Shown: piece after piece, positions 10,385 to 13,771 of the stretch
Numbering within the stretch: position 1 is the stretch's first letter
Layout: every line of letters begins with the position of its first letter
NCBI GenBank assembly: GCA_903837125.1
Contig: CAILTG010000022.1
Location: 1 to 37,326 of the forward strand
DNA length: 37,326 bases
Origin: Candidatus Magasanikiibacteriota bacterium
GTDB lineage: Bacteria; Patescibacteriota; Patescibacteriia; Magasanikbacterales; UBA922
Reading direction: 5' to 3'
Notes under the pieces: model-generated
What the model saw: the letters and a program-made list of their open reading frames with translations, nothing else
What the model was told of the DNA's origin: nothing
Databases searched by the model: none
Made by a program: the position numbers and the translations under genes

Positions 10385-10705
10385 TTATTTACTCTTCAAT
10401 TCTTCTTGCAAGGTTTTCCACTGAGCGCTAACCAATTTAACTACCATGCCTTTCACATTCTCAGCCAAACCATTTTCCACAGCATATTTATCTACAAACA
10501 CCTTAACCTTTTTAACGTATTCATTTTTATCAAAATTCTTATAAGTCTGTGTTTTCAATACCTCATTTTTTAATTTTACATAAACATCAGCCGCATAATC
10601 CAACACTTGTTCTTTTACTTCCCGACCTTTTTTGGTAGTAGAAAGCCACATTAAACCCGCGCCGAGTAGTCCGCCGAAAAATAAACCCTTTTTAAACATG
10701 CCCAT
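10385..10705 (-). CDS. Small YtxH-like / unknown protein with N-terminal hydrophobic segment
   Basis: MGMFKKGLFFGGLLGAGLMWLSTTKKGREVKEQVLDYAAD: Gly-rich TM then amphipathic helix. The ORF track start at 10777 is probably too far upstream. Confidence 0.6.
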   Translation of the reverse strand: MGMFKKGLFFGGLLGAGLMWLSTTKKGREVKEQVLDYAADVYVKLKNEVLKTQTYKNFDKNEYVKKVKVFVDKYAVENGLAENVKGMVVKLVSAQWKTLQEELKSK

Positions 10706-10781
10706 ATGATTGAAAATTAAACAATTGAATAATTGAACGACTATATTATACCAAAAAATTTGTTTTCTGGCAAACAAAAAA

Positions 10782-10860
10782 ATCTCCCTCCCCTCTTAGG
10801 GGAGGCAGGGAGAGGTATGGAGAGGCCGGAAGAGGTATGGGGAGAGTTAAGAAGAGGTAT
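10782..10860. repeat. G/A-rich dispersed-repeat-like element with hairpin and direct repeats
   Basis: Hairpin CCTCCCCT-CTT-AGGGGAGG followed by AGAGGTATGG (10811-10820, 10831-10840) and AGAGGTAT (10853-10860). Confidence 0.7.
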
Positions 10861-10909
10861 AACGCTCTACTGTCAACAAAAATTTATTAACACTAGAGCG
10901 CACCGATGT

Positions 10910-10931
10910 TCACATGTTGGGGGACATGTGA
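10910..10931 (-). terminator. Hairpin just downstream of the GC-island lipoprotein ORF
   Basis: Perfect 8-bp stem TCACATGT/ACATGTGA with 6-nt loop, 22 nt past the stop codon on the minus strand; no U-tract. Confidence 0.4.
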
Positions 10932-10952
10932 CACCGGTGGCAGTTGACTCCT

Positions 10953-11342
10953 TCAGTCCTGATCTCCGGCCCAGGCCGGATAACCGGGCGGATTCGCCGC
11001 CAGGCCCGGACCGTCGCCCCCCATGGACGACGAATTGTTCTCGTGGCCTTCCATCGGAAGAACCGGCGGCGGGCAGAGTTGGTGCATCCAACGGGCCAGA
11101 CGACCCTTGCAGCTCTCCAAGTCTGCGAACGACGCGACGGCGATGCTCTCTTCCTGGTCGTAGAGGCACCGCCAGACCTGGATGCACTCCTGGTCGTTCT
11201 GCGGCAGTCTGCCGCCATTACACCGCCCGAAATGGGGTGCATCCTCCACCCCTCTGCACCGAATCGTCGGGTCGTACTCGCACCCGCCGAGGAACAACGT
11301 CGCCACCAGGCAGGCGACCATTACCGCGAGCAAATGCTTCAT
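10953..11342 (-). CDS. Small cysteine-rich putative lipoprotein in a GC-rich island
   Basis: MKHLLAVMVACLVATLFLGGCEYDP signal peptide with LGGC lipobox; GGAG ribosome-binding-like sequence upstream of the internal ATG at 11342; composition very different from surroundings. Confidence 0.6.
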   Translation of the reverse strand: MKHLLAVMVACLVATLFLGGCEYDPTIRCRGVEDAPHFGRCNGGRLPQNDQECIQVWRCLYDQEESIAVASFADLESCKGRLARWMHQLCPPPVLPMEGHENNSSSMGGDGPGLAANPPGYPAWAGDQD

Positions 11343-11628
11343 CTGACACTCCATTCCGAGAATAGACACCTAGCGCCCGAACATCCTGTCCGTGCGCCAT
11401 GAGACCGATTTACCGTACCAACAATTTCCCCCAAAACTGTTGATCCGACATCAATTCTTTATCCGTTCTGTACAGACAAAAAATAGATGACGGAGCAAAC
11501 AAATGAAAATTGTTGTGTATACAGCAAAACCAGCTTTTCCAAGCTATTTTGTTTCAAAGAACAATAAAGCATTATAGCACGTTTCGCCTGTTTTGTCAAG
11601 AACGCCCTGTTATAATGTTATCGCCTGA

Positions 11629-11665: not shown

Positions 11666-11704
11666 AAAACAGAACCCCAGAATTATCCAAGGTTCTGTTT
11701 TAAT
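11664..11704 (-). terminator. Intrinsic terminator downstream of DsbA-like gene
   Basis: 9-bp stem AACAGAACC/GGTTCTGTT followed by T-run on minus strand. Confidence 0.8.
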
Positions 11705-11720
11705 CTGTGCAATCAATGCT

Positions 11721-12515
11721 TTACTTCAACCCAAGTTCATTCGCTGCTGTATAATAACCATTCAAATTTAACTGTTGCTGTTCACCAAGTTTAAATAATT
11801 TGTCATGCATTTCCAAACCTTTACCTTGTACTTTAGCACATTGAAAAGCTTCAGCTGCCTTTTCTGAATTAGCATGAATAGAAGTTAGAGGAAAAGTATA
11901 ATAAGTAAATTTAACTTGATCTTTATACTCAGCTAATAACTGATCAATAGTTGGAACAAAACGCTGACAATATGGACATTCAAAATCTGAAAATTCCACT
12001 AAAGTAACTTTGGCATTACTGCCACCGCGCCAAGCTGCATCTTTTAATTCCGGCATGGTTACTTTGATAATTTTGCCAGTTTGTTGATCTTTCATAAAAT
12101 CAAAATCTGGAGTTTTACCAGCCAACAAAGTATCAACCACCTGCTTTAACATAGTATATGGCAAAGCACCACTTACCAAATAGCCATTGATAAAAGTAGC
12201 TGGTGTTCCTTGTACACCAAGCGACTCACCTAAACTCTGCTCTGAAGCCACTGCTGAAGCTGTTTGTCCTGAACTTAAACAACTAGTAAACTGTTTTGGA
12301 CCAACTACATTTCCGGCAACAGCGCCAGCATTATTATTTACCACTGTACCAGTAGTATCACCAGCCACCTTGGCTGTACCAGTGCCACTAAGCACCACTG
12401 CCAATAAAATAAAAAACCCAATAGTGCAAAGCACTAAAAGCCCGCCGACAATGCCAAACAAAAACGACTGCTTTTTATCTAGCAGTTCAAACAAACCTTT
12501 TTTACTTTCTTCCAT
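11721..12515 (-). CDS. Membrane-anchored DsbA-family thiol oxidoreductase with circularly permuted domain order
   Basis: N-terminal TM; then DsbA C-terminal half (FTSCLSSG...GVQGTPATFINGYLVSGALPYTMLKQVVDTLL) followed by DsbA N-terminal half (GGSNAKVTLVEFSDFECPYC...EKAAEAFQCAKVQGKGLEMHDKLF...ELGLK-stop). Confidence 0.88.
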   Translation of the reverse strand: MEESKKGLFELLDKKQSFLFGIVGGLLVLCTIGFFILLAVVLSGTGTAKVAGDTTGTVVNNNAGAVAGNVVGPKQFTSCLSSGQTASAVASEQSLGESLGVQGTPATFINGYLVSGALPYTMLKQVVDTLLAGKTPDFDFMKDQQTGKIIKVTMPELKDAAWRGGSNAKVTLVEFSDFECPYCQRFVPTIDQLLAEYKDQVKFTYYTFPLTSIHANSEKAAEAFQCAKVQGKGLEMHDKLFKLGEQQQLNLNGYYTAANELGLK

Positions 12516-12583: not shown

Positions 12584-13771
12584 CTACACAAGCTGTTGAT
12601 AAACATTTTCTAGTTGTTTTACTATTGGGCCCCAAGCATATTTTTCTTCAGCCGCTTGTCTGGCTTTTGTCTGCCAAGCCAGTTGATCATTATCTTTGCC
12701 AAAATAAGCAGCAATTGCTTCGGCCAAGGCTTGTGGATCACCAGGCGTAAAAGTTAAACCTCCATCTTTAGCAACTGACCGAACTCCTGGTAAATCACTA
12801 GCCAAAACTGGCAGACCACTAGCAAAAGCCTCCAAAAGTACCATACCAAAAGCTTCACCTTGATTTACAGAAGGCAAAACCAGCAAATCTCCCAGATTAT
12901 AATAATCCGCCAAATTTTCATCACTTACTTGACCAGTAAAAACCACTCGGTCACTTAAACCAAAATTTTGAGCTTCCAATTCATAAGAATTCCGCAACTC
13001 CCCTTCCCCCACCAATACTGCTTGTACATCCAAATCATCTTGTTTAAGAAGATAAAGAGCTTTAAGCAAAATCGAAATTCCCTTAAAATAGTGTGCCCGA
13101 TCCATGCCACCCACAAATAAAACTGTAGGAATATCGGGATTTAAATTATAACGTTTGAGTAAAGTTTCTGATCGTTGGCGAGGTTGAAATCTTTCTATAT
13201 CCACCCCAAAAGGTAAGGCTAACCACTTTTTTTTGTTTTGTTCATAAATAAACCGCGCGTCACTAGCTTCTACAAAATCCAACGAACTGGCAATCAATAA
13301 ATCCGCTGCTCCTAAAATTTTAGGCATCCAATATTTAGCATAATATTTAAAATACAATCCTTTCCAACCACTGCCCCGCGTATCCATGTGATAAGTAATT
13401 ACCAAAGGCTTGTAGGGGTTACTAATTTTCCACTGCCGTACTAAATTGGCTGTGCCAAAAAATGGATAATGTAAATGCACTAAATCAAAATCATCCAACT
13501 CATTTTTAATCTGTGGCAAATAAGCGGCATTGCCATATTGAAAAGTAGGAGCTAAATAATTCACCTTCTCAATTTGTTGTTGCAGAGGCTCAGCATGTTT
13601 TTCTGCTGGCTCAATTTCGGCTGATTTAATTTCTTTTGATTGATAAATTCCCGGAGTAAGCACTTCCACTTCATGTCCCAATTTTACCAACTCTTCCGCA
13701 GTTTGAAATACAACATTGCCCATACCGCTGTAATATGGTGGATAAGCGCAGACGATATGAGCAATTTTCAT
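12584..13771 (-). CDS. Glycosyltransferase family 4
   Basis: CAYPPYYSGMGNV N-term; GEAFGMVLLEAFASGLPVLASDLPGV nucleotide-sugar binding motif. Confidence 0.9.
   Translation of the reverse strand: MKIAHIVCAYPPYYSGMGNVVFQTAEELVKLGHEVEVLTPGIYQSKEIKSAEIEPAEKHAEPLQQQIEKVNYLAPTFQYGNAAYLPQIKNELDDFDLVHLHYPFFGTANLVRQWKISNPYKPLVITYHMDTRGSGWKGLYFKYYAKYWMPKILGAADLLIASSLDFVEASDARFIYEQNKKKWLALPFGVDIERFQPRQRSETLLKRYNLNPDIPTVLFVGGMDRAHYFKGISILLKALYLLKQDDLDVQAVLVGEGELRNSYELEAQNFGLSDRVVFTGQVSDENLADYYNLGDLLVLPSVNQGEAFGMVLLEAFASGLPVLASDLPGVRSVAKDGGLTFTPGDPQALAEAIAAYFGKDNDQLAWQTKARQAAEEKYAWGPIVKQLENVYQQLV

Follow-up and report, generated by a model that had tools for sequence, protein, structure and literature searches.

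The question raised by this locus is whether a single gene of an uncultured bacterium assigned to Candidatus Magasanikiibacteriota encodes a complete DsbA-like protein whose two halves are swapped and, if so, how such an arrangement arose. The window is the whole stretch of DNA analyzed, 37,326 nucleotides of contig CAILTG010000022.1 (assembly GCA_903837125.1), and the gene lies on its minus strand (Table 1). The ORF, with its ATG at 12515, its stop at 11721 and its length of 264 residues, and the codons of the GTP and CPYC motifs are located as in a preliminary description of the sequence. The membrane anchor proposed there corresponds to a predicted N-terminal helix, and the proposed terminator downstream of the gene is real. 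Canonical DsbAs of the family have this anchor too, as an HMM built on it also matches these paralogues.

Table 1. Features of the permuted gene and its surroundings (positions in the window).
Feature	Position	Strand	Details
Permuted DsbA-like gene	11721..12515	-	264 aa, one unbroken ORF
Single N-terminal TM anchor, residues 14-43	12387..12476	-	AF2/DSSP predicted helix
C-terminal half of DsbA, in first position, residues 74-134	12114..12296	-	Pfam DSBA positions 137-189
C79 of FxxC, half of putative second disulfide	12279..12281	-	invariant in A2
GTP (residues 103-105), cis-Pro equivalent P105	12201..12209	-	sequence; Pro in 44/44 permuted homologues
Linker, old C-terminus to old N-terminus, ~25 aa	12039..12113	-	
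Catalytic N-terminal half of DsbA, in second position, residues 160-244	11784..12038	-	Pfam DSBA 1-76 / Thioredoxin_4 5-91
CPYC active site, C180 and C183	11967..11978	-	CxxC in 44/44 permuted homologues
C226, partner in putative second disulfide spanning the cut	11838..11840	-	invariant in A2
Last helix of helical insert, now C-terminus, residues 245-264, type A cut	11724..11783	-	
Intrinsic terminator	about 11666..11701	-	hairpin and T-run, -21.7 kcal/mol, z -5.6
GT4 glycosyltransferase, conserved upstream neighbor	12584..13771	-	
YtxH-like small protein, conserved downstream neighbor	10385..10777	-	match below Pfam cut-off

The reversed order is established by independent Pfam matches of the two halves, each searched alone. 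Residues 74–126 match positions 137–189 of the DSBA model (E = 7e-7), and residues 171–252 match positions 1–76 (E = 2e-10), so the C-terminal half (C-half) precedes the N-terminal catalytic half (N-half), and the canonical N-half-first order is the mark of family membership that the protein fails. The active-site hallmarks of DsbA are present: CPYC spans residues 180–183, with a helix starting at residue 181, and GTP (103–105) forms the xTP loop. Both the CxxC and the proline at the predicted cis-Pro position are kept in all 44 distinct permuted homologues. The N-half is followed by a tail of 21 residues, in which residues 251–260 of the protein form a helix in the predicted structure; in most canonical homologues, 20–24 residues separate the halves. 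As this tail is equivalent to the canonical inter-half segment, no part of the fold is absent or doubled. The stop codon thus falls where a canonical protein would run on into the F..C segment, as had been pointed out in the preliminary description, and no second C-half remains downstream; the two other matches in the genome sit on other contigs. With both halves homologous, their order reversed and the full inventory contained in one ORF, the protein is, as judged from its sequence and its modeled structure, a DsbA by content and a natural circular permutant by order. A search of NCBIfam with the permuted protein gave nothing above the cut-off. Since domain databases return just two partial matches, this architecture is easily missed.

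The structure prediction that had been proposed as a check yielded a confident model. AlphaFold2, run with a 68-row alignment of permuted homologues and the separate halves of canonical homologues, gave a mean pLDDT of 90.8 for the 264-residue protein (97–99 over the DsbA part) and a pTM of 0.75. The model has a thioredoxin fold with a helical insert, and Foldseek matches it to DsbA structures. Foldseek aligns in sequence order, and its top PDB match is an engineered circularly permuted DsbA (CPDSBA_Q100T99, PDB code 1un2), aligned over 185 columns of a 186-residue chain. Native DsbAs mostly match only one half of the model; those with good fits align over ∼100–115 columns, and longer alignments have a large rmsd. 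For a second permutant, L038 from Roizmanbacteria (mean pLDDT of 86.8), 1un2 is again the top match, with 215 columns, compared to 82–99 for native DsbAs with good fits. The fit to 1un2 is moderate in both cases (TM-scores of 0.59 and 0.66 when normalized by target length, with an rmsd of 5–6 Å). The full-length alignment of 1un2 to both models, which are predictions only, indicates that the predicted fold is that of the unpermuted family.

Homologues of the same order, for which a search of related genomes had been suggested, are conserved as single full-length ORFs in 12 of the 46 genomes of the Magasanikbacteria family (51–59% identity); those from a protein search of relatives share 54–59%. 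Comparison of the permuted forms identified two cut sites, on either side of the last helix of the helical insert. In type A (these 12 Magasanikbacteria proteins, L064 and L165), this helix is at the C-terminus; in type B (all other permuted forms, including the modeled L038), it is on the N-terminal side. A type-B gene is found in four of the 46 family genomes (G009, G013, G030 and G034). In an even draw of 381 Patescibacteria genomes, permuted single-ORF DsbAs are present in at least 30, from at least 17 families; six candidates were scored per genome, and the count of 30 is a lower bound. One of the Patescibacteria genomes (G365) encodes two different permuted DsbAs (L293 and L294); in the second, a signal-like N-terminus leads into a long, charged stretch resembling a coiled coil. 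At L240 (contig 11 of genome G029), a 283-residue ORF for which the DsbA half-models gave no match is joined to the same TM anchor sequence.

All permuted forms found belong to Patescibacteria. Among the strong matches opened in 199 Acidobacteriota genomes, 191 Myxococcota genomes and 196 genomes of the phylum containing Micrarchaeota, selected under strict E-value limits and with some Myxococcota matches left unopened, only tandem fusions (N-C-N-C or N-C-N-C-N-C) were seen. The opened matches with C-to-N order in these genomes were rejected as permutants, as they are such fusions, their shorter ORFs being truncated by contig ends. L081, a candidate for a permuted form outside Patescibacteria, proved to coincide with a locus of the Patescibacteria genome G414. 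Tandem fusions are very common in Myxococcota, with a strong match in 126 of 191 genomes and C-to-N order in the listed ones. Two or three full copies per ORF are found at Myxococcota loci L041, L045, L050, L065, L080 and L283–L286, Acidobacteriota loci L271, L272 and L274, and archaeal loci L051 and L277.

To our knowledge, natural circular permutations are uncommon among enzymes whose active site must be precisely positioned, and repeats within one family are rarer still. Trees were computed from the re-ordered, concatenated halves (∼140 columns), and their inner branches are weak. They separate type A (support 100/99) from three type-B proteins (99/94), which fall among canonical DsbAs of their own family that have the anchor. 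A single ancient permutation, spread by descent or transfer, could still account for both classes if they were trimmed differently from one intermediate carrying two copies of the helix. The restriction of every permuted form to Patescibacteria would suit such an origin, as would two tests that do not reject common clades: types A and B as a single clade with either half alone (p of 0.11 and 0.22, with too few columns), and type A grouped with L038, L039, L147 and L151 (p of 0.36). With both halves, however, the tests reject a single clade for types A and B (p of 7e-46; a quick tree of a broader set gave 0.02), for these two types joined by L014 (p of 2e-6) and for the whole set of permuted forms under test (p of 2e-5). 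Together with the position of type B among canonical proteins, these rejections render a single origin unlikely in our judgment. The permutation has probably arisen more than once, which is not proven. A farther-reaching reading, which we hold nearly as likely as not, is repeated, independent permutation of an anchored DsbA within Patescibacteria at two neighboring cut sites, where tethering through the helical domain may have been useful and a disulfide between the halves may have made the cut tolerable. This reason for selection is inferred.

The preliminary description suggested a route by tandem duplication followed by loss of the outer halves. The duplication remains a hypothesis, as does any duplication-deletion route to the permuted DsbA. 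Loss from the outer end does not hold for the first N-half; since the N-terminal anchor is retained, this half must have been lost internally. Tandem N-C-N-C fusions exist, as described above, in Myxococcota, Acidobacteriota and Micrarchaeota-related archaea, and no tandem intermediate was seen among the fetched loci of Patescibacteria.

We propose that the protein is a natural circularly permuted DsbA that acts as a membrane-tethered, extracytoplasmic thiol oxidase with a VKOR partner, an explanation that we regard as very probable as a whole, in the absence of any experiment. A single TM helix, with the N-terminus inferred to be inside, would hold the complete DsbA fold outside the membrane. 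The old termini would be joined by the short linker, and the new termini would lie in the helical insert beside the segment leading to FxxC. The CPYC motif and the cis-proline are inferred to oxidize exported proteins. Re-oxidation of the permuted DsbA is probably carried out by VKOR, a partnership that is likewise inferred: a VKOR gene lies on another contig of the genome, and 15 of the 16 family genomes that carry a permuted gene also have VKOR. The genes for VKOR and the permuted DsbA are not adjacent, and no operon link between the two was found. A putative second disulfide between Cys79 and Cys226, one from each half, could join the two halves. The equivalent cysteines are present in 43 of the 44 permuted homologues, the remaining one being clipped by a contig end, and most canonical homologues carry the same pair, which must therefore be older than the permutation. 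The main mechanical effect expected is that the membrane tether, instead of leaving from the thioredoxin face, is attached to the helical domain, which would probably alter how the active site is presented.

The distribution of the permuted gene and of the canonical DsbA with the same anchor suggests that the two fill one role. Among the 46 family genomes, two have both genes, 14 only the permuted, 24 only the canonical and six neither (Fisher p of 1.8e-5 for this near-exclusion). The count is not corrected for shared ancestry, which inflates the significance, and covers only homologues above the search threshold. It is also conceivable that the halves pair between molecules, in a domain-swapped or two-chain assembly, such that no permuted monomer exists. 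The sequence is compatible with this arrangement and a monomer prediction cannot exclude it, but the high confidence of the monomer model, the linker of ∼25 residues and the engineered permutant, which is folded and, according to the title of 1un2, retains the global fold of DsbA, leave it very doubtful.

The gene is also maintained in its genomic context. A GT2-DUF2304-GT4-permuted DsbA cluster is common to four relatives (L033, L034, L035 and L037), and the conserved gene order is S8 protease, epimerase, GT2, DUF2304, GT4 and permuted gene, followed in most by the YtxH-like gene. As these neighbors are kept, the permuted gene was inherited in place. The named homologue records come from independent projects and are assigned to Candidatus Magasanikbacteria, with one labeled Parcubacteria. 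An erroneous joining of two canonical fragments during assembly or binning, for which the MAG-type contigs and a GC-rich, foreign-looking island just downstream might speak, can be dismissed with near certainty, as the same order and neighbors recur in independently obtained relatives with full-length similarity. Sequence, predicted structure and conservation with syntenic flanks all support the circular permutation originally proposed, whose new termini fall within the helical insert.

The GC-rich island itself (10870–11400, ∼0.5 kb) has a GC content of 0.61–0.65 within DNA of ∼0.35. It separates the permuted gene from the YtxH-like gene, and the two are close together in relatives. It contains a minus-strand ORF (10953–11369) that reads like a cysteine-rich lipoprotein and has no Pfam match. 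The block is single copy in the genome and gave no plasmid match; it is either a foreign insert or an assembly chimera. Four copies of purine-rich, imperfect 10-nucleotide repeats (GGAGAGGTAT-like) are located at its edge (10799–10860).

As far as we could find, a DsbA with swapped halves was previously known only from the engineered E. coli protein. CPDSBA_Q100T99 (Manjasetty et al. 2004, as cited in PMC2213659) likewise consists of the C-half followed by the N-half and has its new termini within the helical insert. However, it is laboratory-made and soluble, whereas the Magasanikbacteria protein is natural, membrane-anchored and cut at a slightly different site, and identity between CPDSBA_Q100T99 and the natural permutants is only ∼15–19% in structural alignments. 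Engineered permuted DsbAs are also attributed to Hennecke et al. (1999) in PMC3281007, and such counterparts are cited in PMC12667903. The canonical anchored DsbA/Thioredoxin_4 proteins of Magasanikbacteria (such as L017, L018 and L203) share the TM anchor, CPxC, cis-proline and second cysteine pair, but have the N-half before the C-half. Tandem fusions also hold a C-half followed by an N-half in one ORF and could be an intermediate type, but they comprise two or three complete copies (∼400 residues and more). Within the same pathway of disulfide formation, VKOR is reported to differ from DsbB by a natural circular permutation, for which duplication and deletion have been proposed (PMC4555120); these are four-helix membrane partners, in contrast to the thioredoxin-fold enzyme described here. 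A search of the open literature, which left out most subscription papers, turned up no earlier account of a natural permuted DsbA.

A tiny, uncultured bacterium of Candidatus Magasanikbacteria and many of its relatives among Patescibacteria make a DsbA with swapped halves. The rearrangement once built into E. coli DsbA in the laboratory appears to have been reached by nature as well, within a radiation of bacteria that has hardly been studied. With canonical and permuted homologues in one family, and with two cut sites, the origin and the effects of the permutation become directly testable.
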